Translations under genes and position numbers: made by a program
The notes under the pieces: generated by a model
Seen by the model: the letters and a program-made list of their open reading frames with translations, nothing else
Told to the model about the DNA's origin: nothing
Databases searched by the model: none
In this document: piece by piece, positions 1,773-19,161 of the stretch
Layout: each line of letters begins with the position of its first letter
How positions within the stretch are numbered: the first letter of the stretch is position 1
Virus record (IMG/VR): IMGVR_UViG_3300031772_000356
Span: 1 to 20,593 of that record
Origin: a virus
Direction: 5' to 3' (one strand)
Length of the DNA stretch: 20,593 nt

Positions 1773-2579
1773 TCAGCCGCCCTTGCCTTCCAGCTCCTTC
1801 ACGCGCTGGCCGAGCTCTAGGATCAGGTCGAGCGCCGCGGTGCTGAGCTTGCTGGTATTGATCACCTTCCCCGCTGGGGTTTCCTCGACCACCGGGGCGA
1901 GGGGTGTCTTCTCGAGGTCCTGCGCGACGACTCCCACCTGTGGCCCGGGCTCGCCTGCTCCCTCCTTGTAGTCGAAGGTCTTCGGCCGGACCTTTCGGAG
2001 AATAGAGTCGAGCATGTCCGGGGCGGGCTCGATGTTCTCTTTCGCCTTCTCGTCGGAAATCAGACCCCCGGCGAGCCCCGCCACGTCTTTGATCCCGCTC
2101 CAGAGGCCCTGCCCCTGCGCTTGGCCTGCGCCCTGCTGTGCCTGGCCGATCGCCCCCTGCTGGCCCGCGGCAGCCAGTCGCTGGCCCGTGGCCTGCCCGT
2201 AGCGGTTCAACCCACTCTCGAGTCCGCCCTGGTAGGCTCCGGTGTAGAGGTCCCCTGCCTTCTGTCCCGAGGTGAGGGCTGCCTGGCCTGCGTTAAGTCC
2301 CGAGGTCCTGGCTGCCTGGAGCGCAGCTCGGCTGCCCTGCTTCGCCGCGGTCTGCCCCTGCTGCTCGGCGAGAGGCGTCGCTGCGGCCTGAGCGTTCTGC
2401 ATCTGCTGCTGCTCGGTAGTCCCCGCGATCCCCCCGGCGACCTTGCCGGCCTGAGTCATCTGATTCTGGCCGGCCTGCTTCTGAGTCTTGCCGGTGATCC
2501 CGCCCCACCAGTCGCCGGCCTTGTCCCAGAAGTTGGCTGCGTTCTGTGCCCCACGCTGCGCCCCACCCATGTCTGCCAT
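1773..2579 (-). CDS. Gln/Ala-rich virion protein with C-terminal S74 intramolecular-chaperone domain
   Basis: This gene encodes 268 residues. The chosen ATG at 2579 (MADMGGAQRG) has GGAG 8 bases upstream; a longer in-frame version exists but would run back into the preceding gene. Residues 1-35 contain a Trp-rich motif (FWDKAGDWWGGITG). Residues 36-160 are Gln/Ala/Gly-rich and probably helical, as in phage internal or ejection proteins. Residues 173-265 match the peptidase S74 / endosialidase chaperone domain: LISDEKAKENI (Ser175 is the expected cleavage serine), RPKTFDYK, GVVAQDLEKTP, then a C-terminal helix. Known S74 domains help trimeric fibres and spikes to fold and then cut themselves off. 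Here the domain sits on a short Gln/Ala-rich body rather than a beta-helix, which is unusual. The neighbours are a gp10-like tail protein and ejection proteins, so a needle, plug or ejection component is likely. Confidence 0.85.
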   Translation of the reverse strand: MADMGGAQRGAQNAANFWDKAGDWWGGITGKTQKQAGQNQMTQAGKVAGGIAGTTEQQQMQNAQAAATPLAEQQGQTAAKQGSRAALQAARTSGLNAGQAALTSGQKAGDLYTGAYQGGLESGLNRYGQATGQRLAAAGQQGAIGQAQQGAGQAQGQGLWSGIKDVAGLAGGLISDEKAKENIEPAPDMLDSILRKVRPKTFDYKEGAGEPGPQVGVVAQDLEKTPLAPVVEETPAGKVINTSKLSTAALDLILELGQRVKELEGKGG

Positions 2580-2580
2580 G

Positions 2581-5500
2581 CTATTTGCTCCTCGATGCCG
2601 CGGTGACGGCGAATGCGTCACCGGTGTACTCCACGCTCACGTCAGAGATCACGACTTTCTGCGCGCAGCTCACCTTCACGGAGGAGGCGAGCGCGAGTTG
2701 GTTCCTCGGCTGGATCCGGCAGCGGTAGAAGCCTTGCGCATCCCAATCGGCAGGCCTCACCGTCAGAGGCTCGGTGTTCGTATAGGTCTGCCCCTGATCG
2801 AAGCTGTAGCAGGTGAGAGTCACCGCTGCTGTCTGCCGGGTCGCCGAGTACAGCGTGATCACCCAGGTCGTCGCGAGGGATAGGATGTTGTTCAAGATGC
2901 CGTGGTACGCTGACTGCCAGGTGAGTGAGACGATGCTCGTCATCCCCGTGGATGAGAAGTTGTACTGCCAGCTCACCGTATTGTTCGCGAGGTAGATCCC
3001 CCCTCGCGTGTCGTAGAGCCCGAGGCCGGTCTGCGCCACTTTCTTCGTGTTCTCAGTGATCACCCCGTCGCGCACCCAGAGGAGGGTGGTCGTGGTTTCC
3101 AGCAGCAGAGTGTTGTCCCGGATGTTGAACACTCCCTGGAGGATCGTGTCCACGTCGTTCATGCGGATGAGCTTCGTGAGGGCCCGCCCACCGTCGAAGG
3201 TGAAGATTGCGTTGTCAAAGCCCGAGTAGAAGTAGATCAGCGTCGGGCTCGTGCCGATGAGCTCCATGCCGTAGGCCGGGCACATGGGCTCCTTGCCCGT
3301 GTAGATCGAGCCGGTGAACTGCGCGAGATATATCTGGTTTCCGTCGAAGAGGCAGCGCTGGCCGAAGAGGAGGAACCCCTCGAACAGGCCGGTGATCTGA
3401 TTTCCGAGCTCGTAGCAGAGGTAGTCGTTCTCAACGTCCGTCGCCCCGAGCACTCCCACGCCGCAGAAGATCGTCTCGATTTCCGTCTGCATGACAGGTG
3501 AGCTGAAGGTGTAGCCCATGCCGAACGGGATCCGCGTATCGGCGATATAGAGTTTCTGCGCCAGGTCTCCCCGGGCTGCCATGACGTTCACGGACTGGTA
3601 GGTGGTCGAGTAGACATCGGAGAGGTAGATGTTCACCCCGTAGTCAGAGACGGCCCGGTCAATGAAGGTCGGAAGCTCGATCCCCGGGATGAGGTTCGTC
3701 GCGGTGGCGAAGGTCTGCGTGATCAGCTTGTCGCCTGAGTCGATGCTGTTTGCGTGATTCCCCTGCATGACCCCGGCGGCGGTAACGGAACTGCCGAGGA
3801 TCGCGGCGGTCGATCGCAGGAGCATCCTGCCGTTGTAGTCGTTCACCCCGAGGGTCAGTGCGCGGTTCGCCACGTCCACCGCGTTGATCGGCGAGAGGGA
3901 GTTCACGATGTAGAGGTTGTCGCTGACCCGCTGGAGGGTGTTCGTCGCTCCCGAGGTGATCGAGAAGAAGAAGAGCACCCCGTTGTACCGGTAGATGCAG
4001 TTCGCTCGCGAGGAGCCGTTGTCCACGACGTGAGGGACGAAGTATTCGTCGAACTCTCCGACGTTCGTCACCGGCACCCCGAGGCAGTCCATGGGCAGGG
4101 TGTTCTCCGCCCCGATTACCCCGGCGGAAATGAGCGACGGCTGCTCATTGATCATGGGCACGCGCAGCGAGCAGGTGTTGCCGAGGGTGTTCCCTACGAA
4201 GTCCGTGAGGCGCCCGTATCCGTTGCACAGCGTGTGCGTCTGGGACTGCTTGTAGTCGTACCACAGGCCGGGGTTATGCCCCATGATCGGCGCGAGGTAG
4301 TAGTAGATGTTCGTGCCGGTGTCGCTTCGAGTGAATGTCGCCTCGGCGTAGCCCGGTCCGCTCACGTTCTCCGTAAACGTCGCCACGACAGCAGCTAGGG
4401 CCACGCCGTAGTAGACGGGAGTGGCGGAGTAGACGCCTGCCTGCGTGTAGCCGACTTCTCCGATGCCAGTGAGCAGGTTCGCGGTGTTCTTCTTGACGTT
4501 GAACGTGAGGATCGCGCGTGAGTAGGCTGTGCCTTTGAACTGGTCGATGACGCACCATGTGCCGTCGGCGATCGCGGTCATCGTCGCTGCCACGTCTCCA
4601 ATAGCGAAGCTGCCGACTCCCTGACGCCCCACGATGTAGTTCGAGGCGTAGAACTTCCAGCCGAAGTTGGTACCGGTGATTATCTGAGCGCTCGTCATAA
4701 CTTGGACGCCAACAACTCCATCCAGAGCGACCGCGCATAATATATTCAGAGCAGGCGACCAACATACCGATTGCCACGACTGAGCATTGGGACTTGTCTG
4801 CGCCGTCCAACTGATCCCATCAGGGGAGGTCATTATTTGAACACCTACCGCCCCATCGGATGCCACCGCACAGAATAGACCAAGAGCCGATGACCAACAA
4901 ATAGATGACCATGCTCTTGCGCTAGTACTTGTATGCGCTGTCCACGCAATTCCATTTGGAGAAGTCATGACTTGAGCGGCTACCGCTCCGGTGGCCGCTA
5001 CGGCGCAGAAAAGATTCAGTTCAGGCGACCAGCAGACGGATTGCCACGCCAGGGCGCTTGTGCTTGTCTGAGTAGTCCAAGTTGTTCCATCGGGAGAGGT
5101 CATTACCACCCCTCCCGAGCCCACTGCACAGAAAAGTGTTAATGCCGGCGACCAGCAGATTTCCTGCCATAGATCGGCGCTGGCACTTGTCCGGGAAGTC
5201 CAAGTAGTTCCGTCAGGAGAAGTCATCACCTGAACGGCGACTACCCCATTCTCTGCCACCGCACAAAACAAACCTAGGGCGGATGACCAGCAAACGGACG
5301 ACCATATTTGAGCGCTGGCACTTGTCCGGGAAGTCCATGTGATCCCATCGGGAGAGGTCATCACTTGAGTGGCGACTAGTCCATCTGCCGCTACGGCGCA
5401 GAAAAGATTCAACGCCGGAGACCAACAAACCGATCTCCACATCCTCGCGCTGGCACTTGTACGCGCGGTCCAAGTAGTGCCGTCGGGAGAAGTCATTACC

Positions 5501-6201
5501 TGGGCTGCAACCAACCCGTTGTTTGCCACAGCGCAAAACAAGCCGAGCGCGGGAGACCAGCAAACGGATCGCCACTGCTGAGCATTCGCACTCGTGCGCG
5601 CAGTCCAGGTCTGCCCGCCGAGGATAGTCGTGGTCGGTCCGGATTCGCTCAGCAAAAAGGAAACGATGTTGTTCGACAGGATGAATTGCAGGCTGTCTGC
5701 GTACGCCATGCCCATGTACTTCACGAGCGCTACGTTGATGATCGCCACTCCCGGCATCGAGAACGTCGTCGAACGGGTGTTGATGATGGCTCCCGTTGCC
5801 GGGTTGTATTCGTCCACGCGGATCGCCGAGCCGACCTTCACGATGCCGATGATCGTGTTGCTCGAAGTCCACGCCGCGTCGCTGTACCCGCGCATCGCGC
5901 CTCGCAGGCTCACGGCGTACGTCCCCACGTTGCCGATCACACTGTCGTTGATCCGAACGTTGTGGCTGGAATCCACCTGCAGCAGATCCCCGCTCCGCGT
6001 GTAGAGCGAGTGAAGCCCAGCGGTGGCGAACGTCGTCTCCTTCTCGTAGAGGTTCGTCACCCCGCCCATGCGTTCGATGCCGGTGTTCGCGAGCACCTTC
6101 GCCAGCTCGTCCTCGAAGGCGAAGATGTCCGCGCCGAGGGGAGAGTCGGTGCACAGCGGGGCTTTGAGGTTGAGCGTGGCTCGCGCGGTTTTCTCGCCCA
6201 C
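2581..6201 (-). CDS. P22 gp10-like tail / DNA-stabilization protein with seven-repeat beta-propeller insertion
   Basis: This gene encodes 1206 residues. I chose the GTG at 6201, which shares a base with the TAG of the preceding gene (TAGTG) and has AAGGG about 9 bases upstream. A longer version from 6288 would overlap that gene by 88 bases and add an Arg/Pro-rich shadow-like sequence. Residues 1-195 (GGVTNLYEKET, LYTRSGDLLQVD) and about 505-1206 are beta-rich. The C-terminal layout (SFDQGQTYTNTE, then FYRCRIQPRNQ, then VVISDVSVEYTG) recalls the end of P22-type packaged-DNA stabilization proteins, but the usual length there is near 470. Residues 197-504 hold seven tandem repeats built on WxSVCWSPALGLFCAVA and MTSPDGTTWT, like Asp-box (BNR) blades. 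The position directly after the gp4-like adaptor supports a tail-hub role. A tailspike or adhesin role for the propeller is possible. Confidence 0.75.
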   Translation of the reverse strand: MGEKTARATLNLKAPLCTDSPLGADIFAFEDELAKVLANTGIERMGGVTNLYEKETTFATAGLHSLYTRSGDLLQVDSSHNVRINDSVIGNVGTYAVSLRGAMRGYSDAAWTSSNTIIGIVKVGSAIRVDEYNPATGAIINTRSTTFSMPGVAIINVALVKYMGMAYADSLQFILSNNIVSFLLSESGPTTTILGGQTWTARTSANAQQWRSVCWSPALGLFCAVANNGLVAAQVMTSPDGTTWTARTSASARMWRSVCWSPALNLFCAVAADGLVATQVMTSPDGITWTSRTSASAQIWSSVCWSSALGLFCAVAENGVVAVQVMTSPDGTTWTSRTSASADLWQEICWSPALTLFCAVGSGGVVMTSPDGTTWTTQTSTSALAWQSVCWSPELNLFCAVAATGAVAAQVMTSPNGIAWTAHTSTSARAWSSICWSSALGLFCAVASDGAVGVQIMTSPDGISWTAQTSPNAQSWQSVCWSPALNILCAVALDGVVGVQVMTSAQIITGTNFGWKFYASNYIVGRQGVGSFAIGDVAATMTAIADGTWCVIDQFKGTAYSRAILTFNVKKNTANLLTGIGEVGYTQAGVYSATPVYYGVALAAVVATFTENVSGPGYAEATFTRSDTGTNIYYYLAPIMGHNPGLWYDYKQSQTHTLCNGYGRLTDFVGNTLGNTCSLRVPMINEQPSLISAGVIGAENTLPMDCLGVPVTNVGEFDEYFVPHVVDNGSSRANCIYRYNGVLFFFSITSGATNTLQRVSDNLYIVNSLSPINAVDVANRALTLGVNDYNGRMLLRSTAAILGSSVTAAGVMQGNHANSIDSGDKLITQTFATATNLIPGIELPTFIDRAVSDYGVNIYLSDVYSTTYQSVNVMAARGDLAQKLYIADTRIPFGMGYTFSSPVMQTEIETIFCGVGVLGATDVENDYLCYELGNQITGLFEGFLLFGQRCLFDGNQIYLAQFTGSIYTGKEPMCPAYGMELIGTSPTLIYFYSGFDNAIFTFDGGRALTKLIRMNDVDTILQGVFNIRDNTLLLETTTTLLWVRDGVITENTKKVAQTGLGLYDTRGGIYLANNTVSWQYNFSSTGMTSIVSLTWQSAYHGILNNILSLATTWVITLYSATRQTAAVTLTCYSFDQGQTYTNTEPLTVRPADWDAQGFYRCRIQPRNQLALASSVKVSCAQKVVISDVSVEYTGDAFAVTAASRSK
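4690..5613. repeat. Seven tandem ~135-bp coding repeats (propeller blades)
   Basis: Reading the minus strand, seven in-frame units occur with the Trp of the WxxxCW motif at residues 210, 255, 300, 345, 386, 431 and 476 of the host protein. The period is 45 residues, except for one unit of 41 that lacks four residues between GVV and MTSPDG. Each unit has a conserved core (CWSPALxLFCAVA, then QVMTSPDG, then TWTxxTSxSA) and variable positions just before the Trp and after CAVA. The DNA is poorer in GC than its surroundings: 4861-4980 is 50% GC (60 of 120, counted), against 70% in 5881-5940. Synonymous differences between units are common, so the array is not a very recent copy. Confidence 0.93.
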
Positions 6202-7610
6202 TAGTGCAGCCCTTGCGCCGGGTAGGCGTTCCGGATCCGCGTCGGCAGGTAGTCGTCGCGGCGCATCATCGAGGAGAAAGTCTGCCACTTCCCCGCGAGC
6301 TTCTCCTTAAGCTCCCCCGTGTCCTGGTTCTGCTTCGCGCGGTAGTCGATCGCGCTCTGGTAGGCCATGATCTCGGGGACCAGGTTGTTCGGGTAGGCGA
6401 AGTCGTAATCCACCACGCAGTCGACGCCGCGGAGCTCCTGCGTCTCTGCCCGCCGCACTCCGATGATGACCGTGGAAGGGGACTGACCGAGGTCCGGCAC
6501 GGGGAAGCCCATGTCCGTGACCGATGTGTCGATTGCCTCATCGGTGGCGATCGCCGCGGTGGTCCCGATGGTGAGCGTCACCCGGCGGAGGATCCCCGTG
6601 CTACCCAGCACGCACAGAGTGTTGGGCTCCCCGGTGATCTTCGTTATGCCCGAAGCGTAGATCGTGGTCGGCGTGGGGGTCTGGACGATCACCGCGCCGG
6701 CGGCCGTCGCGTAGACGACGGTGGTTCCGTAGATCGCGAGGCTCGTAGCGACCACCGTTGCCACGAGCGCATCGCTTCCCCCGGTGAGCGTGCAGGAGCG
6801 GATCTGCGTGGCGTTGGCGTAGTAGATGGTGTCCGAGACGATGCAGAAGGCGACGACGTTCACGATCGCCCCGACCTGCGTGGGAGCAGCGAACGCTGCG
6901 ATGAGGGTGCTCGCCTTATACCACATGCTTCCGCCGCGGATCCAGTAGAGCGTGCCCTTGTAGTAGACGAGGTTCGTGACGGCTCCCGAATCTGTGAACA
7001 GCGCCACCGGGGCGCTGACCGTGGCTGAGCTGATGCTCTCGGCGGTGATCACCGTCCCCGAAGTGAGCGTGTAGACCATCGACTGCCCGTAGGCCGCATA
7101 GCATGCCCCGCCGATGCCCATCCAGGCGGGGGCGGTGTAACTCGAGCCGAACACCAGGTCCGCCTGCGGGCAGGTGATCGTGGCCTGCCGGGGGTAATAG
7201 CCTATCTTCACGGAGAGGCCGGTCGCCGGCACGCTCGCACCGATGACCCAGAGGAACGCTCCCTTGATCCTGTAGTACGGGCTCGCGGGCTGGTTGTCCT
7301 TCATGCTGAGGTTGAACTTCAGCATCGGAAGCCAATCCATCGTCCCGCGGTAGTCCACGTAGCGGATCCTCGAGCAGTCCGAGGGAAGCGGCAGCAGGTA
7401 CTCGTTCGTCGTGCCGGAGACAGCGTACGTGCTCGAGAGCGTCAGCGTCGTCTCGGAGAGGAAGTAGTCGTCGTCGTTCTCGAGGAGCTGCGCGTAGATG
7501 TCTTTCCAGCTCTCGTTGAGTGACGCGAGCTCGTCGTTGTGGTCGACGAACTGCGAGGAGGGAAGATCCGAAGCGTGGCGAGCGCGGAGGATGATCTCGC
7601 TGGCGATCAC
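6201..7610 (-). CDS. P22 gp4-like head-tail adaptor with beta-propeller-like insertion
   Basis: This gene encodes 469 residues. The ATG at 7610 overlaps the stop of the preceding gene (ATGA). Residues 1-147 look like the helical-plus-beta fold of podovirus head-tail adaptors: IILRARHASDLPSSQ, then LNESWKDIYAQLLENDDDYF, then LLPLPSDCSRIRYVDYRG, then IGYYPRQATI. The C-terminal part, about 400-469 (DYDFAYPNNLVPEIMAYQS, then DYRAKQNQD, then RRDDYLPTRIRNAYP), reads like the end of the same domain. In between, about residues 165-395 form a beta-rich repetitive stretch with units such as LVYYKGTLYWI, FCIVSDTIYYAN, LAIYGTTVVYAT and TLCVLGSTGILRRV. This resembles blades of a YncE/DUF5050-type propeller. 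P22 gp4 has about 166 residues, so the extra length is explained by this insertion. Gene order (coat, then this gene, then the gp10-like gene) supports a tail accessory factor. The adaptor assignment is by motif reading and order only. Confidence 0.75.
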   Translation of the reverse strand: MIASEIILRARHASDLPSSQFVDHNDELASLNESWKDIYAQLLENDDDYFLSETTLTLSSTYAVSGTTNEYLLPLPSDCSRIRYVDYRGTMDWLPMLKFNLSMKDNQPASPYYRIKGAFLWVIGASVPATGLSVKIGYYPRQATITCPQADLVFGSSYTAPAWMGIGGACYAAYGQSMVYTLTSGTVITAESISSATVSAPVALFTDSGAVTNLVYYKGTLYWIRGGSMWYKASTLIAAFAAPTQVGAIVNVVAFCIVSDTIYYANATQIRSCTLTGGSDALVATVVATSLAIYGTTVVYATAAGAVIVQTPTPTTIYASGITKITGEPNTLCVLGSTGILRRVTLTIGTTAAIATDEAIDTSVTDMGFPVPDLGQSPSTVIIGVRRAETQELRGVDCVVDYDFAYPNNLVPEIMAYQSAIDYRAKQNQDTGELKEKLAGKWQTFSSMMRRDDYLPTRIRNAYPAQGLH

Positions 7611-7938: not shown

Positions 7939-9315
7939 CTAGAAGCTCACAACCGCGCAGTGCCCGGGTTCCCTCGCGACGAAGTTCCCGTACAGCGACA
8001 CGCTGACCTGCGTGGCCGGTCCTTCAACCGAGGTTGCGTTGCCGTCCATCGTGAGGTAGTCCTCGATGTTCAGCTTGAACGTGGTGTCGGGCTCTTCCTG
8101 GTTCTCGTCGGCCGCAGCAGCCCCCGGCTCGTTTCCGGTGATGCCTTCGTCGAACTGCTTCTGAGCGTTCGAGTAGGTGACGAACTCGATCGTTGATTTG
8201 TCGATGATCCACGCGCGACCCCTGATGCAGTAGGGGTCATCGTAGACGTACTCGATCCAGTTCGTGCTCATGGCGAACCGCAGAGCCGCGAGGCCGCGAG
8301 CGACCTCGTTCTTCTGGTTCTTCGCCCCCGAGGTGTTGATCTGCTGCATGAGGGCGGTCTGCTGGTTCACTTCTCCTGCCATGGTCAGCCAGTCTTCGTC
8401 GTTGATCGCCACCATGTCCGGGACCCCTCCGCCGCGGCGGGCCATGGCGACTCCCTGGACGATGGCGTCCATGTAGAGCTCTCCGCTTGCTCGGCCGTAG
8501 TACCAGCCGGCGAGGGTGTTCGTTGAGGTGGAGCGCGTCACCCCGTAGAAGGCGGTGCCGATGTAGGTCGTCCAGTTGGCTCCGCTTCTGTTGGCAAGGA
8601 ACGGAATCCAGCCTGAGAGGCCGGTCGGCATGCTTGCAACCGGGGTTGCATCGCGTCCGCCTACGATCTCGATGAGCGATCCAGCAATCCAGCCGCCAGC
8701 GGTCGCACCGCCGCCCGTCCAGGTGATGGTGTTCCCGTCGATCGCGGATACCGTCCGCACCGTCGCGTCATAGTAGCCCGAGGTGGGTAAGGCACCGTTT
8801 ACGACGTAGAACTGCGTACCGATCGCCATCTTTACCACGGTGTCGTAGTTCAGCGTGGCGGTCGTGGCCGCTGCCGCTACCGCGGTCGGCAGATACCCCA
8901 GGTCCCCGCAGCCGTACCCGTACAGCGATGCGGCGAAGAGCTTCCGCTGGCTGTCGCATGCGGCGAAGAGTTTGTAGCCGAGCGCCTTCAGGTACCCGCC
9001 CTTTTTCGTGCGGGCCGCGAGGAACTCTTTCTGCGTCACGAGGAACACCGTGAAGATGTTGCCTGGCGTGACGGCCATCTCGGCGGTCTTGGCGCTCGAG
9101 GCGGCGTTCGCCACGGCTACGGTGTAGTCGCCGCTCGTGGCCCCTCCGCGGTCGTAGGGCATCGTGACCTGGTAGGTCTGGCCCTCGATCCGGTTTTTCT
9201 CGATCTCCCGCCCTACCGGTGAGTTGCGGAAGAACATCCCCCTGATCTTCTTGTCGGTGTACGTCCTCTTGTACAGCCCGAGCAAGAAGGCATCAGCCGT
9301 GACCTGCTGTGCCAT
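7939..9315 (-). CDS. Major capsid protein (HK97-fold type)
   Basis: This gene encodes 458 residues, with an ATG preceded by GGGAGGG. The N-terminal region (DAFLLGLYKRTYTDKKIRGMF, split as DAFLLGLYK and TDKKIRGMF, then NSPVGREIEKNRIEG, then TYQVTMPYDRGGATSGDY) and the following TPGNIFTVFLVTQKEF are typical of podovirus and siphovirus HK97-fold coat proteins. The later GVPDMVAINDEDWLTMAGE, and the C-terminal pattern IIDKSTIEFVTYSN then PDTTFKLNIEDYLTMDGN and SVSLYGNFVAREPG, fit the P-domain and last strands. A Gly/Ala/Thr-rich stretch at about 155-235 (TWTGGGATAGGW) may be a surface insertion. It directly follows a scaffold-like gene and is followed by a strong hairpin terminator, as expected for the most abundant virion protein. 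No obvious N-terminal cleaved delta domain is present, consistent with a separate scaffold. Confidence 0.88.
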   Translation of the reverse strand: MAQQVTADAFLLGLYKRTYTDKKIRGMFFRNSPVGREIEKNRIEGQTYQVTMPYDRGGATSGDYTVAVANAASSAKTAEMAVTPGNIFTVFLVTQKEFLAARTKKGGYLKALGYKLFAACDSQRKLFAASLYGYGCGDLGYLPTAVAAAATTATLNYDTVVKMAIGTQFYVVNGALPTSGYYDATVRTVSAIDGNTITWTGGGATAGGWIAGSLIEIVGGRDATPVASMPTGLSGWIPFLANRSGANWTTYIGTAFYGVTRSTSTNTLAGWYYGRASGELYMDAIVQGVAMARRGGGVPDMVAINDEDWLTMAGEVNQQTALMQQINTSGAKNQKNEVARGLAALRFAMSTNWIEYVYDDPYCIRGRAWIIDKSTIEFVTYSNAQKQFDEGITGNEPGAAAADENQEEPDTTFKLNIEDYLTMDGNATSVEGPATQVSVSLYGNFVAREPGHCAVVSF

Positions 9316-9973: not shown

Positions 9974-10639
9974 CTACGTCCACAGCGGCGGCAGCGGAAC
10001 CTCCGCGAAGAAGATGCTCACCGAGTACGTGGTCGAGGTTGCCGCCGTGGCGCAGAACGAGAGCGCGGTGCCGGGGGGCATCACGAACAGCCCCATGAAG
10101 TCGAGGAACATCCTTGCCGGAAGTCCTACCGCAGCCGCACCTTCGATCCAGTGCCCCACTCCGAGATCTGCGATCCAGGTCGGGTTGGTGGTGAAGGTGT
10201 TGACGGCGTGAGCGAACCGCGTGGTGGCCGCTCCGCGTCCGATCAGGCATGGGGTTGGAACGACGTTCGTGAACGTTGCGATCGGGGCTCCAGTGAGCGC
10301 CGCGTCGCCCGTGGCGAGCGTCTGCGATACGGTGATCCCGTGCAGTACGGGTGTTCCGATCGCGCCTGGCGAGAGCATGATCGCCAGCGGGTAGACGAGT
10401 TTCCCCGAGCTGGAGATGTTCCACAGCGTCGGGCTGTTGGTGGCCGTTGACTGGATCGGAATCGCGGCCACGGCCGCGCTTTTCGCGACGTAGACCATGC
10501 CGCGTCGCGTCAGCTCTGCGTAGTTGCCGTAGAGCTGCTGCACGATCAGCTCGCCGGTATTGCCCCCTCTTCCCATTCCGAAGTTGTTGTCCTGGATCAC
10601 CTGCGGTCCAGCGACCATATCGAAAGTCAGATCAGGCAT
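9974..10639 (-). CDS. Probable virion surface/decoration protein, paralogue B
   Basis: This gene encodes 221 residues, with an ATG at 10639 preceded by AAGGAGTAACCT. It is beta-rich and Ala/Thr/Gly-rich, without Cys clusters, signal peptide or membrane helix. It is clearly homologous to the gene just upstream (10667-11356): shared positions include GELI then a Tyr/Trp-Gly motif, RRGMVYVAKSAAVAAIPI, NSPTLWN, then KLVYPLAIMLSPGAIGTPVL, and a final strand pair near PPGTALSF and IFFAEVP. It lies between the portal and the scaffold and coat genes. A head decoration, head fibre or other structural role is inferred from position and composition; no named family was recognised. Its proximity to the coat gene suggests high expression. 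Confidence 0.78.
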   Translation of the reverse strand: MPDLTFDMVAGPQVIQDNNFGMGRGGNTGELIVQQLYGNYAELTRRGMVYVAKSAAVAAIPIQSTATNSPTLWNISSSGKLVYPLAIMLSPGAIGTPVLHGITVSQTLATGDAALTGAPIATFTNVVPTPCLIGRGAATTRFAHAVNTFTTNPTWIADLGVGHWIEGAAAVGLPARMFLDFMGLFVMPPGTALSFCATAATSTTYSVSIFFAEVPLPPLWT

Positions 10640-10666: not shown

Positions 10667-11356
10667 TCACGCGCTCACGAGGGCGGGGATCTCGGCGAAG
10701 ATGATCGAGGTCCAGTACGTTGTGCTCGTCGCGATGGTCGAGCCGATGTGGAGCGTGGTGCCGGGCAGCAACTGGATGCTGCCGTCGAAGTCGTAGCTGA
10801 AGCCGCTGTAGAGCTGGCCGCTCGCAGCCGCACCCTCGAGGTGATGTCCGAAGCCCATGTCGATGAGGGCCGCGGGGTTCACCGTGTAGGTCGAGACGGC
10901 AGGAGCGAACAGCGTCGAGGCGACCTTGCCTCCGCCCACGAGCAGCGGGACCGGGGCGACGTTCGTCCAGGTCGGGATCGGAGCGCCCGTTGCGGCTACC
11001 GAGCCAGCGCTCGTAAGATACGAGAGGGTGAAGCCCTGGAGGATCGGGGTGCCGATCGCGCCCAGGGACAGCGAGATGCGAAGAGGAACCACGAGCTTGT
11101 TGGAGCCCGCGGGGTTCCAGATTGACGGGGCGTTCGTCAGCGTGGTGTTGATCGGAACCGCGGCCGCAGCCGCGACACGAGCAACGAAGACGAAGCCTCG
11201 CCGGCAGAACTCACCGAACTTGCCCCACAGGTCCGCGGTGATGAGCTCTCCCATGCTGCCGGCTAGGAAGTTGGTGACGGTGGAGTCGGATAGATTCCTC
11301 GGAGCGCCGACGGTGCACGCGCTCCCGAAATCTACTTTGCCGATGTCAGTTGCCAT
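10667..11356 (-). CDS. Probable virion surface/decoration protein, paralogue A
   Basis: This gene encodes 229 residues, with an ATG at 11356 preceded by AGGAG 8 bases upstream. Its main blocks are MGELITADLWGKFGEFCRRG, then FVFVARVAAAAAVPINTTLT, NAPSIWN, KLVVPLRISLSLGAIGTPIL and an end with LLPGTTLHIG then SIIFAEIPALV. These align in order with the next gene (9974-10639), so the two arose by tandem duplication. The fold is probably a beta-sandwich. The block lies between portal and scaffold, where P22 has no such genes, so these are lineage-specific additions. A structural role is inferred only. Confidence 0.78.
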   Translation of the reverse strand: MATDIGKVDFGSACTVGAPRNLSDSTVTNFLAGSMGELITADLWGKFGEFCRRGFVFVARVAAAAAVPINTTLTNAPSIWNPAGSNKLVVPLRISLSLGAIGTPILQGFTLSYLTSAGSVAATGAPIPTWTNVAPVPLLVGGGKVASTLFAPAVSTYTVNPAALIDMGFGHHLEGAAASGQLYSGFSYDFDGSIQLLPGTTLHIGSTIATSTTYWTSIIFAEIPALVSA

Positions 11357-11980: not shown

Positions 11981-13801
11981 CTACGCTGCCGGGACTCCCG
12001 GCTGGCTGGCTGCCGGCAACGCCGGCGAGGTCATCGACAGAGCAGATTCCGGCGGGGCTTCCAACGGAAGCTGGTTCGTCGGCCCTTGCACCGTCGGCGG
12101 CTGTACGGGTGATTCAGGCGGAGCAGGCGGGGCCATCGCAGCACTCATCGAGTCCTGCTTGCCCTTCACGGTCTCCAGAAGCTTTTTCAAGCGATTGAGT
12201 GTTTCGATCTTCTCATCGCTGGCATCGAGACGAAGCAGCGTGCTCACCGTCTCACCGAAAAGCTGCTCGAGGTTCACCGTCTCGAAGAACTCGAACTCGT
12301 TGTCCTCGACCGCCCGCTCGATGATCCGCTGGCAGTAGTCGTAGCTCGCCGAGGTGATCGAGTAGGCTCCCTCGAGGTCTGGGAACTCGAGGAGCGTCGC
12401 CACGAGGGAAGGGTTGAGGACCTTCATCGCGATCAACTTCTCGATCTGCTCCATCTTCGTTTTTGGATCCTTCGAGAGCGAGGAGCTCGCGGAGAACTGG
12501 ATTGAGAAGCTGTCCCTCTCGCGCTTGATGTCCGCCCAGGTGATCGCGGCGCGGCCCCTGCGCTTCGGCAGAACGTCCTCGCCCGCGGGGAACACTTCGA
12601 TGCAGATGTTCGCCACGTCCATGAAGAAGCGGATGAAGGACTGGAGCCACGGGTTGTGCCGCTCGCTCTCCACGTCCTCGACGGTCTGAAGAGCCACGCC
12701 GCTGTTGAGGCCCGAGGGCTTCTTCGCCTGCGCCGAGAGTTGCGAGATCCCGCTCATCTCCATGCTCTGCGCGATCCAGAACTGGAGCATCGGGAGGTAC
12801 TGCGGATCGAGTGCCGGGGGAGTAGCTACAATCACCGGCGGGGAACTCACGCCAGGCACAGGCTTGTACGGGTAGACGGCGCCGATCTCGTTGGTGAGCA
12901 GCGACGCCTTTACCTCGCTGCCCATCATCACCCACGCGACGTTCGCCGGGGAGAGTTCGTAGGCGAGGTGGATCTTCCTGCACAGTGACTCTACCTGGAG
13001 CTGGATGGTGTAGGTGTTGTCGGCAATCGAGGTCGAGGTGTTGCCCTTCAGCGGCTGCTCGAGGTACAGCACCGCGACGGGCGGGCAGTCGAACTCGATC
13101 GGCACCTCGTCGATGAGCTTGCCGGCGGCGAAGGTGAGCTGCTTCCTGCCGGCCAGGTCGTAGTAGATGGTCCGCTCGCCCTTGAGGAACGGGTTATCCT
13201 CGAGCCGCTGCGCGAGGTCCTCGACTCCCTCTTCCTTGCTCTTCTTGATCCGGTCCTTCAGGTATGCGAGCGGGAACATCTTCTGGGAGATCGCGCAGCG
13301 GGTGAGCTTCCCGAAGTTCCACTCCGCGGGATCGAACAGGTACTCCCACGGGGCGACCGAGCGGATGACCTTCTCTTCCCAATCGACCCACAGGCACCCG
13401 CGCTCGAAGATGTCCGCGAACCGCGCGCACTGGATCGCCTTGCGGTGCACGTCCTGCCTCTCGTAGAGCTGGTCGAAGTAGCTCTGCGCGTTGCGGCAGG
13501 TCTTCAGGGTCTTGAAGGTGCCGGCGGTGGGATTGAAGAATGGGCGGACCTTCGTCTCGCTGACCTTCGAGACGTGCGTGTCGATGCAGGCCCGGATGAC
13601 GTTGAGGTACGGGGTGATCCCCGTGTCCTCGCCCTCGTCGAGGTTGTAGTAGCCCGCGGGATTGCCGTACTGGTTACTGAGGTCCTCGACGCGGCGGCCG
13701 TTGTTGAGGTAGCGGTTGATCGAGCGCCGCCACTTCGGCATGTTCTTCGACATCTGCCCCGCGAGGAAGGCGAGGTCGACTCGAACCTGCTGGACCGTCA
13801 C
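11981..13801 (-). CDS. Portal protein
   Basis: This gene encodes 606 residues. The start is a GTG at 13801 whose bases overlap the preceding TGA (GTGA); AAGGCGGGA lies upstream. Recognisable podovirus portal features are the N-terminal helix (KWRRSINRYLNNGRRVEDLS), ITPYLNVIRACIDTHVSKV, KAIQCARFADIFERGCLWVD, then SVAPWEYLFDPAEWNFGKLT, PPVAVLYLEQPL, and a long helix with the clip and stem region (QLSAQAKKPSGLNSGVALQT, then VEDVESERHNPWLQSFIRFF). The C-terminal 50 residues are a Pro/Ala/Gln-rich, probably disordered tail after a helix (ETLNRLKKLLETVKGKQD). The length is within the range of short-tailed-phage portals. Its product forms the dodecameric ring at the capsid vertex through which the terminase below loads DNA. 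Confidence 0.88.
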   Translation of the reverse strand: MTVQQVRVDLAFLAGQMSKNMPKWRRSINRYLNNGRRVEDLSNQYGNPAGYYNLDEGEDTGITPYLNVIRACIDTHVSKVSETKVRPFFNPTAGTFKTLKTCRNAQSYFDQLYERQDVHRKAIQCARFADIFERGCLWVDWEEKVIRSVAPWEYLFDPAEWNFGKLTRCAISQKMFPLAYLKDRIKKSKEEGVEDLAQRLEDNPFLKGERTIYYDLAGRKQLTFAAGKLIDEVPIEFDCPPVAVLYLEQPLKGNTSTSIADNTYTIQLQVESLCRKIHLAYELSPANVAWVMMGSEVKASLLTNEIGAVYPYKPVPGVSSPPVIVATPPALDPQYLPMLQFWIAQSMEMSGISQLSAQAKKPSGLNSGVALQTVEDVESERHNPWLQSFIRFFMDVANICIEVFPAGEDVLPKRRGRAAITWADIKRERDSFSIQFSASSSLSKDPKTKMEQIEKLIAMKVLNPSLVATLLEFPDLEGAYSITSASYDYCQRIIERAVEDNEFEFFETVNLEQLFGETVSTLLRLDASDEKIETLNRLKKLLETVKGKQDSMSAAMAPPAPPESPVQPPTVQGPTNQLPLEAPPESALSMTSPALPAASQPGVPAA

Positions 13802-14559: not shown

Positions 14560-14843
14560 CTCCCTCCTCGAAACACTCGCGATAGCGGCGTCACGTCTTC
14601 CACGCGCAGCCGCGCCTTCTGCTTGCGGATCTCCTCGGCCCGCGGCGCCGTGCACCATTCGCAGTGGCACTTCCCGCACGGCATCGAACGCGTGCCCTGG
14701 TAATGCTCGCTGATCCTATGCCCGCACCGGCACATGATCGGCTTGAGGGCGGGATCCTCGCGGTGCGCCGCCTCCTGCATCTGCTCGCGGCCGACGTCGC
14801 GAAGCCAGCGGTGCCGCTCAAGAGATTCGTCGGCGCGGCTCAT
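14556..14843 (-). CDS. Small zinc-binding protein (CxCGH...CxxCxCxxC)
   Basis: This gene encodes 95 residues, and its ATG overlaps the TGA of the terminase gene (ATGA). Residues 38-64 carry a dense metal-ligand array: C38, C40, H42, H47, C56, C59, C61 and C64 (CRCGHRISEHYQ, then CGKCHCEWC). I recognise this pattern from short proteins scattered in actinophage and environmental phage genomes. Eight potential ligands could bind two zinc ions. The flanks are charged helices. The position between terminase and portal genes hints at DNA packaging or a nucleic-acid-binding accessory role, but nothing in the sequence decides this. Confidence 0.78.
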   Translation of the reverse strand: MSRADESLERHRWLRDVGREQMQEAAHREDPALKPIMCRCGHRISEHYQGTRSMPCGKCHCEWCTAPRAEEIRKQKARLRVEDVTPLSRVFRGGR

Positions 14844-16477
14844 TCCTTCACCTTCGAGTAGAACAGCCAGATGTCCCTCATCGCGTACGTCACCGCGGGG
14901 ATCGCGTCCGGGTGGAACGTCTCATCGTCGATCTCGCGCGTGAGCTTGTCCTGGTCGTCGCGGCCGTAGATCGTCTTCAACGACTCATCCCAGAACGCTC
15001 CCGTGCGCCGAGCCTTGAAGATGCCGCGCCGGCACTCGTCCTGCAGCAGCTCGACGGCCATCGCCTTCTCCGCTTTGTACGCTGCCTGGATCGGCAGGCC
15101 GTACTGTGTCGCCAGGTCGAAGGGGGTGATCGCGTTGCCGCCAGTATCGGCGTAGATCATGAACTCCTTCGTGACCACCTTCGCGAAGAGCGGCGAGGTC
15201 GCGACGTACTGAAGGCCGCGACGGATTTCAGCAGCAAGCTCCGCAGTACCGATGCGGTTCTGCTTGTACTCGTAAACGAGCCATCGCTCGCTCTTCGAGG
15301 TCGAGTAGGCGATGATAGCGAAAGCGTCGGAGTCGGTGAATCCGAAGTCGAGCCCTGCGGTGAAACGGATGTCGGTGACGGGCTGCTTGGCGATCCACGC
15401 AGCGAGCTCGTCATCGACGAAAGCGTTTCCATCGCCGAGCCGTAGAACGAGGGCGTCGTCATCGTAGCTGATCCTCCCGAGATACTCGCGCACGTACAGG
15501 CTGTCCGTCTCCTTGAGCTGCTTCTCGCGTCGGATCTCCGCGAGCGCCGTCTCGTAGTTCGGGATGAACGGATTCTGCGTGAGGTTCCAGTTGATCCGCA
15601 GCGCGTCAGGGTACAGCGACCTGCCGTCTGCCCACTGCCCGAGGAAGACGGCCTCCCAGTAGGTCCCCCGCACCCGCGGCCCGGTGCCGGCCATCGCGAG
15701 CTGGCCGCCGGTGTCGATGAGCGTAGGCGAGAGGATCGACTCGACCAGGTACATCAGCTCTTTCTGCGACTGGCTCTCGTCGATCGCCACGCGGTCCCAG
15801 TGAGGACCTCGGTTCTTTTCCCGCTCGTCCTTCGATCCGTTGCCTCCGAAGAGCATGAGGCCGCCGGCCTCGGTGAGAATCCGCCCCTCGATGCGCGACT
15901 GCTCCTTGACCTTGATCCCGAGCTCGGCGAACAACTCCATGATCGGCTGCCAGAGCTGCGCCATGGCGCGCGTAATGGTGAGGCCGATATACAGGCAGCG
16001 CGCCGTGGGCTTCTGCACGAACGCATCGCCGAACCAGTATGAGAGCCCCTGCGATTTCCCCGCGCGCCTGCCCGCCATGAAGAACTGGTACTTGCATCGC
16101 GAGAAGAGGATCTGCCGCTGGATATCAGTAGCGCGTTTGTGGAGCTGGTAACTCAGGAACATCTGCTCTCGCCGCTCGCCGCGGTCGATCCATGCGTCGA
16201 TCTCGTCCAGCGCGTCGTCCTTGAACAAGCGGTCAGCTAGGAAGCGCGACTGCCACGAGTCTTTACGTTTCGCCGCTCCTCGAAACGTCCGCATGTACTG
16301 CGTGAGGAAGTCCTTGCCATCCTCTCCGCCGAGCAACCCCATGAACGCTTGCAGCGCGCGCTGCTTGTAGCCCGTCCCCGCAGGACGCCCAGGGCCAGGC
16401 TGACAACCCGGCTTGAACGGAGGAGCGTTCACCTTGTGCTTTTTTTGTGCTTTACTTTTCGTCGTCGCGTTGCTCAT
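14840..16477 (-). CDS. terL: Terminase large subunit (ATPase-nuclease), with N-terminal DUF5681-like extension
   Basis: This gene encodes 545 residues. The motor packages DNA into the prohead through the portal. The ATPase has a Walker A at about 134-142 (MAGRRAGKS), a Walker B at 229-234 (RVAIDE, with the catalytic Glu at 234) and a coupling motif at 262-266 (MAGTG). The C-terminal RNase H-like nuclease shows acidic residues at D377 (AGLDFGF), D444 (IYADTGG) and D524 (FHPDAIPA). Residues 1-110 precede the ATPase; the segment PPFKPGCQPGPGRPAGTG followed by a helical part resembles the DUF5681 domain often linked to small terminases. No separate classical small terminase gene is obvious nearby, so a fusion is possible. 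The ATG is shared with the TGA of the sigma-like gene (ATGA) and lies inside the small RHH gene. Confidence 0.93.
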   Translation of the reverse strand: MSNATTKSKAQKKHKVNAPPFKPGCQPGPGRPAGTGYKQRALQAFMGLLGGEDGKDFLTQYMRTFRGAAKRKDSWQSRFLADRLFKDDALDEIDAWIDRGERREQMFLSYQLHKRATDIQRQILFSRCKYQFFMAGRRAGKSQGLSYWFGDAFVQKPTARCLYIGLTITRAMAQLWQPIMELFAELGIKVKEQSRIEGRILTEAGGLMLFGGNGSKDEREKNRGPHWDRVAIDESQSQKELMYLVESILSPTLIDTGGQLAMAGTGPRVRGTYWEAVFLGQWADGRSLYPDALRINWNLTQNPFIPNYETALAEIRREKQLKETDSLYVREYLGRISYDDDALVLRLGDGNAFVDDELAAWIAKQPVTDIRFTAGLDFGFTDSDAFAIIAYSTSKSERWLVYEYKQNRIGTAELAAEIRRGLQYVATSPLFAKVVTKEFMIYADTGGNAITPFDLATQYGLPIQAAYKAEKAMAVELLQDECRRGIFKARRTGAFWDESLKTIYGRDDQDKLTREIDDETFHPDAIPAVTYAMRDIWLFYSKVKE

Positions 16478-16616
16478 CTCGCGGCCTCACGCGATTGAAG
16501 AGCTGCAGCATCCGGTTCACTACGTAGCTGAAGCTCAGCCCATACTCCCTGCACTGGCGCTTGGTTTCCTGCCACACATCTTCGTCCAGGCTGACGAGCA
16601 CGGATTTCTTTGCCAC
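16452..16616 (-). CDS. Ribbon-helix-helix DNA-binding protein (54 residues), overlapping gene
   Basis: This small gene lies in another frame over the 3' end of the sigma-like gene and runs 26 bases into the terminase gene. It starts with GTG at 16616, preceded by AGGATGAT and by an in-frame TGA two codons upstream. The product begins MAKKSVLVSLDEDVWQETKR and continues with REYGLSFSYVVNRMLQLF, the pattern of a ribbon-helix-helix (CopG/Arc-type) domain: a short strand, a helix starting after DEDVW, and a second helix after LSFSYV. The charged tail ends DDEK. Third codon positions are rich in G/C here, unlike the overlapping frame. A transcriptional repressor or a small terminase-type DNA-recognition factor are both possible. 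Confidence 0.72.
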   Translation of the reverse strand: MAKKSVLVSLDEDVWQETKRQCREYGLSFSYVVNRMLQLFNRVRPRDEQRDDEK

Positions 16617-17124
16617 GGTGCATCATCCTGTAGACGGTGTGCAGTTGCACGGCCCGGGCGTAGATCCACGCTCGGCCCGCGTACTCGGCGATCGTGAGCA
16701 CAGCACGCTGGTAGCCCCATGAGCTCCACAGGTCGAGCAGCGCCTTGCGCCCAACCTCTGTTCGTTGCAGGTCCTTCGCGTAGTCGATCGGCTGGAGCTC
16801 GTCGCCTCTCTCGACGATTGACGCCGGCTCGTATTCGAGCTGCGCATCAGGCGGCTCGCGATGACCGTTGCCGCCGTAGAGCAGAGCGTGAGCCACTTCA
16901 CGGCTCACCATGAAACCGAAGTGGCGGATTCGATACCCGCCAGGACTGCGCATGTAGCGCTCGACAAGTCGAGCCGCAGCATGATGCGCGATCTCGGTGC
17001 TGTCAGGCCGGCCACGAAGGATCTGCCCTGCCATGAAGTGGAGCTCGGAGTACAGAGCAGTGAGCGCCCGCCCTTCCCCCTCGAGGTACCGTCGCTGCAG
17101 CTCATGTGCGACTCGCTCATTCAT
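16474..17124 (-). CDS. Sigma-factor-like protein (regions 2 and 4-like), with unusual run-on tail
   Basis: This gene encodes 216 residues, with an ATG at 17124 preceded by AAGGTGG. Residues 1-82 have the layout of sigma region 2 in short alternative sigma factors: HELQRRYLEGEGRALTALY, then an AEDLAQEAF-like helix (DSTEIAHHAAARLVERYMRS), then an Arg-rich strand and FMVSREVAHALLYG. Residues 125-170 (ALLDLWSSWGYQRAVLTIAE, then YAGRAWIYARAVQLHTVYRM) could be a region-4-like helix-turn-helix. The last 45 residues (after KEIR) have poor G/C use at third positions and overlap the RHH gene, so they are probably a run-on rather than a domain. Its TGA still overlaps the terminase ATG. Likely a phage transcription factor; it could instead be a DNA-binding protein with a sigma-like fold only. 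Confidence 0.68.
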   Translation of the reverse strand: MNERVAHELQRRYLEGEGRALTALYSELHFMAGQILRGRPDSTEIAHHAAARLVERYMRSPGGYRIRHFGFMVSREVAHALLYGGNGHREPPDAQLEYEPASIVERGDELQPIDYAKDLQRTEVGRKALLDLWSSWGYQRAVLTIAEYAGRAWIYARAVQLHTVYRMMHRGKEIRARQPGRRCVAGNQAPVQGVWAELQLRSEPDAAALQSREAAR

Positions 17125-17139
17125 TCCACCTTAATCCGT

Positions 17140-17553
17140 TTACGGGTTTGAGGACAAAAGTTGTTTACGCTCATGCATCCTACGGTGGCAATAGGCGCAG
17201 AGATGCATGACCAGTAGCGGCATGGAATAGTCGGGGTGGTGCCGGTGCTGCGCCTTCGCACCACATAACTCGCAAGTATCGGCAAGGGGGATCTTGCTTC
17301 GAGCTTGATGCGCTGCGTTGCACTCCTGCCGATGTGCTTTTTCCCACCTGCGTACCGATTTCGCGAACTTATCCGGGTTGGCCTTTTGCCACTTTCGCAC
17401 CGATTCCCTGTCGCTCTTTCGGTATATTTCGCGATGAGCCTCCTTCCACCGGCACACTGCCTCTCTGCTCTTCTCGGGGTGTGCCTTGGCCCACTTGCGG
17501 TTCGATTCCCTGTGATGTGTCAACCGATCCTCATCGGATAGTTTTGCTGGCAT
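17140..17553 (-). CDS. HNH-type nuclease-like zinc protein with N-terminal Trp/Arg repeats
   Basis: This gene encodes 137 residues, with a start at 17553 (MPAKLSDEDR) behind GGAGGAGG; it overlaps the end of the preceding sigma-like gene by 23 bases. Residues 12-80 are short basic repeats of about 17-18 residues (RKWAKAHPEK, CRWKEAHREI, RKWQKANPDK, RRWEKAHRQE), which I know as a DNA-binding spacer in phage HNH proteins. The C-terminal domain has the metal-binding pattern CELC (94-97), HRHHPDY (103-109) and CAYCHRRMH (119-127), resembling the HNH fold with structural CxxC pairs. It may be a homing or packaging-associated nuclease. Such a gene close to the terminase is common in phages with cohesive ends. 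Activity depends on the HH of the motif, and no mutation was seen. Confidence 0.82.
   Translation of the reverse strand: MPAKLSDEDRLTHHRESNRKWAKAHPEKSREAVCRWKEAHREIYRKSDRESVRKWQKANPDKFAKSVRRWEKAHRQECNAAHQARSKIPLADTCELCGAKAQHRHHPDYSMPLLVMHLCAYCHRRMHERKQLLSSNP
17152..17170 (-). promoter_or_regulatory. Conserved intergenic 19-mer (copy 2)
   Basis: The plus strand reads GGACAAAAGTTGTTTACGC, one base different from 14066-14084. It lies within the last codons of the HNH gene, 28 bases before the ATG of the sigma-like gene. A second GTTTACG at 17138-17144 lies 25 bases from the one inside this copy (17163-17169), which suggests a two-site binding array. Confidence 0.55.
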
Positions 17554-17779
17554 TTTTCCTCCTCCAGTTCCGCATGTACAGCGCGCTGATAGCTCTGCCG
17601 GCGATCTCCGCGCAGTCCGGGATTGAGGCGTGCTCGGGAGCCCTCTGGATCTTCTCCCACGCCTCGGACTCAGCATCCTCGACGTCCTCGGGTAGCCCGA
17701 AGTACCGGAGGGCCCGCTTGCGGATGAAGGTGATGAGGAACTCGCTTCGGCGCAGTTGCTCACACTTGGCTGCGGTCAT
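17531..17779 (-). CDS. Short sigma-region-2-like protein
   Basis: This gene encodes 82 residues, with an ATG at 17779 behind GATGAGG; it overlaps the preceding gene by 20 bases. The sequence FLITFIRKRALRYFGLPEDV, then EDAESEAWEKIQRA, then a variable link and AGRAISALYMRNWRRKN, follows sigma region 2: helix, PEDAEDxxxEA helix, and a final helix with A/S-x-x-R-N-W-R-R-K. The length is only about half of a full alternative sigma factor and no region 4 follows. It might bind core RNA polymerase as an anti-host or co-activator factor, or be a degenerate sigma factor. It lies between a small basic protein and the HNH gene, and near a second sigma-like gene, so paralogy is possible. Read by eye only. 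Confidence 0.65.
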   Translation of the reverse strand: MTAAKCEQLRRSEFLITFIRKRALRYFGLPEDVEDAESEAWEKIQRAPEHASIPDCAEIAGRAISALYMRNWRRKNASKTIR

Positions 17780-17999
17780 ACGGCCTCATCGTGTAGTGCG
17801 AGCCCCGCTTGGCGATGCGGGCGCGGATCGCTTGCTCGTGGCGCTGGCAGTAGCGAACGGTCCAGCGCTGAGCTGGGCCTGATAGCCCGAGGCGGGCCGC
17901 GGTCTTCCTCCACCTCGGGCAGGCTGCGTCGATCGAGGCTCTGACGTTCACCGACAGCCTGGCCTGGCGCCTGGCCCGCTTCCACGCTTTTTCAGCCAT
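17760..17999 (-). CDS. Small basic protein of unknown function (79 residues)
   Basis: The start is an ATG at 17999 (MAEKAWKRARRQARLSVNVR) behind AGGGAGGGG. The protein is strongly basic, with Arg-rich helices (WKRARRQARLS, RWRKTAARLGLSG, RWTVRYCQRHEQAIRARIAK) and two Cys. GC-rich codons and positive charge suggest nucleic-acid binding. No domain was recognised; one helix-turn-helix-like segment (ACPRWRKTAARLGLSGPAQR) is only suggestive. Its stop overlaps the next gene by 20 bases, and the 53-residue gene upstream overlaps its start. Confidence 0.68.
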   Translation of the reverse strand: MAEKAWKRARRQARLSVNVRASIDAACPRWRKTAARLGLSGPAQRWTVRYCQRHEQAIRARIAKRGSHYTMRPYDRSQV

Positions 18000-18153
18000 G
18001 TACCCCTCCCTGTTCGACCTGGCATCGAGACTCTGCACGGTTCCAGTATTTGCATCGCTTCCAGCACTTCGCCCGGGTGAAGTTCGCTGGCACCATCGGA
18101 CAGCGGCGAAGACGGACGGGGACCCTGCCCTGGGCTCGGCGGCTGGGGTTCAC
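17992..18153 (-). CDS. Small Cys/Arg-rich protein (53 residues), probable
   Basis: It fills the space between the replication gene and the basic protein gene. The start is the second of two GTG codons, at 18153, overlapping the replication-gene TGA as GTGA; the first GTG (18156) is possible. GAGG lies about 13 bases before the chosen start. The sequence is Arg-rich at the N-terminus (NPSRRAQGRVPVRLRRC), then has four Cys at 18, 30, 34 and 44 (CWKRCKYWNR), which could bind zinc. The C-terminal part shares nothing with a known family. The frame fits the packed layout of the region. Expression has not been shown, so confidence is moderate. Confidence 0.5.
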   Translation of the reverse strand: MNPSRRAQGRVPVRLRRCPMVPANFTRAKCWKRCKYWNRAESRCQVEQGGVHG

Positions 18154-18896: not shown

Positions 18897-18897
18897 C

Positions 18898-19161
18898 TCA
18901 TCCCTCGTCGTTTCTGCCCGTGGATGTACCTGCAGGTACCCGTGGCGAACGTTGCCCCCCCATGCCGAGTCGTTCTTCCACCTCGGACAAACGGGCCGCC
19001 AGGCCGCGATCCCGGTCCTCCCGGGGGTATCGCCGCATGTGCTGCTCGAGGGCTTCGGCGACCAGCCCGGACAGGTCCGCCATGTGCGCGAGCTCGGCAT
19101 ACCTGCGGGCCTTCTCGAGCAGATCAGGGGCGAGTGTCAGGCGCACGCGGTTGCGGCTCAT
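18898..19161 (-). CDS. Ribbon-helix-helix DNA-binding protein (87 residues)
   Basis: The ATG at 19161 overlaps the stop of the membrane-protein gene (ATGA). Residues 1-45 fit an RHH domain: strand NRVRLTLAPDLLEKARRYAE (RVRLTL is the DNA-contacting strand; PDLLEKARRYAEL is the first helix), then DLSGLVAEALEQHMRRY as the second helix. The rest (EDRDRGLAARLSEVEERL and a Pro/Gly-rich end) is helical then disordered. RHH proteins bind DNA as dimers and commonly repress their own promoter. As the neighbour of the replication gene, it may regulate the early operon, or bind the nearby repeats. This is inferred. A second RHH protein is encoded at 16452-16616. Confidence 0.82.
   Translation of the reverse strand: MSRNRVRLTLAPDLLEKARRYAELAHMADLSGLVAEALEQHMRRYPREDRDRGLAARLSEVEERLGMGGQRSPRVPAGTSTGRNDEG

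Follow-up and report, generated by a model that had tools for sequence, protein, structure and literature searches.

What is a complete set of repeats doing inside the tail protein of a phage, where did it come from, and could it serve host recognition? These questions are raised by IMG/VR virus record IMGVR_UViG_3300031772_000356, analysed here over all its 20,593 bases (the window), in which a tail hub gene, hereafter the nozzle gene (positions 2581..6201, minus strand, 1206 residues), carries an array of seven similar units at 4687..5619 of the same strand (residues 195-505). The account we favour, and hold to be reasonably probable as a whole, is that the array is an imported and exchangeable beta-propeller cassette, situated near the tail tip in the nozzle of a divergent short-tailed phage and acting as an auxiliary multivalent adhesin.

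The array is regular in both its protein and its DNA. Units 1, 2 and 3 (5485..5619, 5350..5484 and 5215..5349) and units 5, 6 and 7 (4957..5091, 4822..4956 and 4687..4821) have 45 residues each and unit 4 (5092..5214) has 41, all on the minus strand, and the spacing from landmark to landmark is 45, 45, 45, 41, 45 and 45; unit 1 starts with the host-conserved residues GG. The initial annotation, which had described seven units of 45 residues with one of 41, was correct in this respect (45, 45, 45, 41, 45, 45, 45), and its span of 4690-5613 has the right location but not the exact bounds, since the full units extend over 4687-5619 on the minus strand. Pairwise identity between units averages 68% (range 54-80%), and Tandem Repeats Finder independently detected a period of 135 bp at 5177-5502. 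All units share a core of the CWSPALxLFCAVA type, and the motif SPDGxxW or SPNGIAW occurs six times over the seven units. It fits the short Asp-box consensus (S/T)-x-(D/N)-x-x-x-(W/F/Y) (PMC2716378), so the array is a repeated series of short Asp-boxes. In Pfam, the array did not match the BNR/Asp-box model and gave only sub-threshold hits to DUF6242, DUF6385 and WD40.

The whole nozzle was modelled with AlphaFold2 from an alignment of six sequences. In this model the array has 27 strands, four per unit, with a moderate predicted local distance difference test score (pLDDT) of about 70, and Foldseek aligned it to full seven-bladed propellers, including 7big (template modelling score, TM, 0.78 on the target) and Ycf48 (5ojr). 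A profile scan for the repeat found at least 477 viral and at least 278 bacterial loci, and exactly seven units are present in 129 of the 186 related arrays that do not run into a contig end, which agrees with the closed ring that is predicted. The seven-bladed propeller foreseen in the initial annotation is therefore borne out by model, structural match and unit count alike, and a closed seven-bladed beta-propeller of the Asp-box type is supported as the predicted fold.

Is this propeller an integral part of the nozzle, or was it added to it? Relatives of the window were found by alignment-based scans with TerL, portal and hub; exact-peptide scans with the whole nozzle or with TerL alone retrieved none. 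Genome G056 (loci L182 and L228) has a hub of 919 residues that carries no array, with flanks about 61% identical to those of the window, and window residues 5-198 and 511-1198 adjoin in it: its junction reads IGGQGFSNFCWKF, against LGGQ-array-TNFGWKF in the window. Arrays stand at the same GG in L230, L231 and G055 (L223), and at the same position in L229, where the contig cuts the upstream end. At the same site, the occupant in G059 (L185 and L232) is a repeat propeller unrelated to the array, about 400 residues long (L232:4411-8172, residues ~205-600) and of the GRIGSWxGTAWTxY type. In the more distant but syntenic G025, the array is absent from the hub gene and terminates a different long protein. 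The array is thus a discrete cassette at an invariant GG near residue 195, and this site seems to behave as an exchange point, since across the clade it is empty, occupied by either of two array lineages, or occupied by an unrelated propeller. An artefact of assembly is scarcely credible as an explanation: the step in codon usage at the array bounds is sharp, as a chimera would have it, but relatives whose contigs were assembled separately, from other metagenome datasets, also have arrays at this site, and the reading frame is intact over both joins.

A more serious alternative, though an unlikely one, is that the common ancestor of the clade already had the array, which was passed on with the nozzle gene, that its blades homogenise within each copy, and that G056 lost it. 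Four relatives do carry arrays at this GG, the window array and that of L229 belong to one lineage at one site, and the star-like tree of the backbones permits one gain and one loss. The arrays themselves tell against common inheritance. In a tree of 42 arrays, the window array (win) groups with L229 and L012 (100/100), and L230, L231 and G055 make up a separate clade (100/99); the approximately unbiased test rejected one origin for all the same-site arrays (AU p=0.024). Moreover, L012, the nearest relative of the window array, is part of an adaptor protein (phrog_394) in a different phage and yet clusters with win and L229. The unrelated propeller in G059 at this site and the codon step, which is sharp and confined to the array, also argue against this alternative.

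The codon step deserves closer consideration. The initial annotation had contrasted a GC content (guanine plus cytosine) of 50% in 4861-4980 with 70% in 5881-5940, and both values were recovered (0.50 and 0.70). At fourfold-degenerate sites the difference is larger: the array has a GC of 0.495 there and the remainder of the gene 0.846, and nowhere else in the structural genes does a stretch of 311 codons have less than 0.740. The codon-usage plot which the annotation had suggested shows a sharp step confined to the array. Low GC as an intrinsic property of the repeat family was considered and rejected, because in other, GC-rich hosts the arrays agree with their flanks; for 137 arrays in other hosts the median fourfold-site difference from the flanks is about 0 and the minimum is -0.26, and the drop in the window exceeds that of every one of them. 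An insert in the adjacent adaptor gene (all-beta and propeller-like, 6396..7148, minus strand, approximate bounds at residues 155-405, about 250 residues) provides a control for an old insert by virtue of its host-like codon use. Its fourfold-site GC is 0.86 against 0.90, without an array-like drop, and it is common to all close kin (adaptors of 438-485 residues) and absent from the adaptors of about 220 residues in G025, L177 and L176 (222 residues).

Did the array then grow in place or arrive ready-made? Between the blades of the window array, synonymous sites are saturated (proportion of synonymous differences, pS, 0.78; of nonsynonymous differences, pN, 0.21; pN/pS 0.27). Recent tandem growth in place is rejected on this ground, and the blades probably diverged before their arrival. 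Since they are saturated at synonymous sites while their codon use is still unlike that of the host gene, import as a whole fits better, and the observations point to a ready-made propeller that was imported in one piece. Where the initial annotation had offered an array that was either old or imported whole, import is the better fit. Its broader idea of an acquired domain is supported by the empty site in the 61%-identical G056, by two lineages at one site and by a fourfold-site GC that falls just where the array lies. As contrary evidence it had named relatives that share both insert and GC, and this was not what was seen, as relatives vary in both the presence and the lineage of the insert. 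The same figures bear on the notion of the array as a neutral repeat which, being prone to recombination, spreads from one phage gene to another without benefit. Very many loci do carry it in unrelated genes, but the low pN/pS between blades, the seven units kept in most arrays and the intact frame of the window array make this very improbable.

Which protein received the cassette? On the minus strand the structural genes run in the order terL, portal, scaffold, coat, adaptor, hub, a chaperone protein with a Peptidase_S74 domain, and two possible ejection proteins, and the stretch from terL to hub follows the P22 record, save for three extra genes between portal and scaffold. Gene position suggests that the host protein is the nozzle, with a place at the tail tip by analogy, and "nozzle protein" is a safer name than gp10-like. 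The initial annotation had called it P22 gp10-like, which agrees with gene order but with neither sequence nor length: P22 gp10 has 472 residues, and the window hub is nearly twice as long even without the array (about 895 residues). P22 gp10 (phrog_578) was matched by neither the window protein, A9 members nor G056 in the PHROG search, and outside the array the window hub matched no PHROG family. A sequence search of the PDB gave no match for the hub, and profiles of the portal, adaptor and nozzle had no meaningful match among PDB sequences. Comparison of the nozzle profile by hhalign with P22 gp10, T7 gp12, SU10 gp17 and G025 was non-significant (for P22 gp10, E 0.19 in a single comparison, probability 0.3%). 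The syntenic protein of G025 weakly matches phrog_3287 (E 7e-4), to which the window protein itself is unmatched and which the SU10 nozzle, gp17, matches at 8e-116; the window portal has a weak match to the SU10 portal (E 0.001, below the cut-off). Membership of the P22 gp10 family is not claimed, because the hub lacks a family match and its equivalent in G025 links weakly to the SU10 nozzle family.

The location of the insertion can be compared with that in nozzles of known structure. Those of T7, SU10 and crassviruses have a seven-bladed propeller base, from which extra domains leave between or within blades 2 and 3 (PMC6702177, PMC9509320, PMC10172136). An immunoglobulin (Ig)-like stretch was detected in SU10 gp17 from about residue 158, the first such domain (IG1) of the crassvirus muzzle gp44 starts at 163 (PMC10172136), and array-bearing phrog_376 tail proteins of other phages have their insertion site at about 160-190. 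This agreement suggests that the cassette occupies the distal opening of the nozzle. Like SU10 gp17 and crassvirus gp44, the window protein would be the nozzle of a short-tailed phage with extra distal, cell-facing domains that enter at about residue 160-200 (195 in the window). Unlike them, it has no direct sequence match for its hub, and in place of Ig-like or "crass" domains it carries a complete seven-bladed Asp-box propeller that kin may be without or have replaced.

What would such a cassette do? In the mechanism that we propose, recombination would have brought it from a low-GC source, most likely a structural gene of another phage, too recently for it to have adopted the codon use of its new gene. 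Six copies of the nozzle per virion would then present six near-symmetric propellers near the tail tip, whose near-identical blades could offer repeated sites, as in lectin-like propellers. The cassette would serve as an additional, multivalent adhesin whose targets are probably surface glycans, and a swap at the GG site would alter recognition by the tail tip. Two other inserts point to glycans: the hub of G055 has a CBM_4_9 carbohydrate-binding domain inserted at residue 64 (Pfam E 5e-7), a second site that spans residues ~63-226, and the insert of the window adaptor is tectonin-like, its model resembling the lectin tectonin 2 (Foldseek, TM 0.69 to 5fsb). The propeller might instead be a structural part, namely a spacer, a stabiliser or a docking face for tail fibres, comparable to the Ig-like nozzle domains that lengthen the tail of SU10, and no adhesin at all. 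Core nozzle propellers are structural, and the inserted domains of the SU10 nozzle and the IG domains of crassviruses, at a comparable point, do build the nozzle (PMC9509320, PMC10172136). However, a relative without the array and unrelated occupants at the site are hard to square with a load-bearing role, and G055 has a carbohydrate-binding domain in the same protein; we regard a purely structural part as unlikely.

Several points weigh against the imported nozzle adhesin that we favour. Outside the array, the AlphaFold2 model of the backbone has a mean pLDDT of 40.7, mostly below 50, which leaves the place of the cassette on the tail unmodelled; groups of four strands at residues 64-91 and 109-146 of this low-confidence model may be blades. 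The window hub has no significant sequence link to P22 gp10, T7 gp12 or SU10 gp17. Other inserts in the hub across the clade also have a lower GC than the backbones around them, though least so in the L231 copy, and the drop in the L229 array is larger than that in the window, so inserts in this gene may tend generally to be AT-rich, which would explain part of the drop. The backbone tree is star-like and unresolved, and by tree alone a gain in the window cannot be separated from a loss in G056. Host or glycan binding, finally, though plausible, is something we infer.

Among known systems, the closest in kind are the adhesion modules of evolved Dit, Tal and MTP proteins together with the distal domain insertions of the SU10 and crassvirus nozzles. 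Siphophage Dit, Tal and MTP proteins of this sort bear carbohydrate-binding or adhesion modules in loops of otherwise conserved tail proteins, variable among kin (PMC7291167). The window likewise has a module inserted in a conserved tail protein and absent in kin, as the empty site of G056 shows, but its carrier is, by gene order, a podoviral hub that follows the adaptor, its module is a propeller, and its binding is putative. From P22 gp10, with which it shares its place after the adaptor, the window hub differs in the sequence and length noted above. Short Asp-boxes have been reported mostly in five-bladed GH32 and GH43 proteins, in one or two copies (PMC2716378). The window shares their S-x-D-x-x-x-W motif, and its model matches Ycf48 and other seven-bladed propellers; it differs in having six copies of the motif in a repetitive seven-bladed propeller unmatched by Pfam BNR, and its seven four-strand units are one of the closed-ring numbers (6, 7 or 10 blades) for Asp-box propellers. 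Highly repetitive beta-propellers are known to gain near-symmetric blades by amplification of one blade (PMC9218822), and the window array resembles them in its near-symmetric blades but is a cassette within phage structural proteins. What is new is that the module is a complete short-Asp-box propeller, that a podoviral hub carries it, and that the empty, occupied and alternative states are directly documented; searches of an open-access library yielded no paper describing such a nozzle propeller cassette.

The hub gene most likely starts at GTG 6201, which overlaps the TAG stop of the upstream adaptor gene as TAGTG and has AAGGG upstream, rather than at the first in-frame GTG at 6288; its frame has no stops and is intact across both array joins, and it has orthologues in L228, L229, L230, L231 and L232. 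The N-terminal part of the backbone (residues 1-194, 5620..6201, minus strand; fourfold-site GC 0.86) aligns with G056, G055, G059, L230 and L231, and the C-terminal part (residues 506-1206, 2581..4686, minus strand) is 56-62% identical to close relatives and 33-35% to G059. Also on the minus strand lie terL, the terminase large subunit (14840..16477; phrog_2, E 1e-13), the portal (11981..13801; a weak SU10_portal match in Pfam, with a G025 homologue that matches connector/portal PHROGs), the major capsid (coat) protein (7939..9315; its G025 homologue matches major head protein PHROGs), the 469-residue head-tail adaptor (6201..7610; aligned to the adaptors of G025, L176 and close kin) and, directly after the nozzle gene, the Peptidase_S74 (chaperone of endosialidase) protein (1773..2621; Pfam E 1e-10). 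The two genes beyond it are weakly supported as possible ejection proteins. Between portal and scaffold, 9974-10639 and 10667-11356 encode adjacent paralogues of about 220 residues, each of which matches both homologues in kin. Upstream of terL, 16474-18990 has a fourfold-site GC of 0.55-0.59 against 0.77-0.88 in most structural genes. Searches of the window for RNA families and tRNAs were both empty.

Beyond the clade, other phages have the array in their nozzles, adaptors or tail proteins, and very many loci carry it in unrelated genes. Three adjacent adaptor paralogues at L012:1351-4396 have a seven-blade array in the first only. Adjacent adaptor and nozzle-like genes of the same phage each have one at L013:1388-6285 and L014:2736-7633. 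In Synechococcus phage B23 (MN695335.1), an unannotated open frame of 323 residues with seven blades lies at L007:4941-5909, where two antisense genes (gp328 and gp329) are annotated instead. As a tentative generalisation, possible but held with some doubt, the short-Asp-box seven-bladed propeller may serve tailed phages generally as a plug-in adhesion cassette and may have passed from phage to unrelated phage among genes for nozzle, adaptor, hub and fibre. The GG site of this clade's nozzle may be a dedicated exchange point for such cassettes, which would make it a modular device for host range that lies apart from the tail fibres.

Fibres and spikes are usually credited with the adhesion of short-tailed phages. 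An exchangeable propeller in the nozzle would put the evolution of host contact in the DNA gate itself, and the empty, two-lineage and unrelated-occupant states of the site are natural pairs with and without the cassette. The repeat family, widespread and unnamed, would also provide a candidate adhesin in many uncultured phages.

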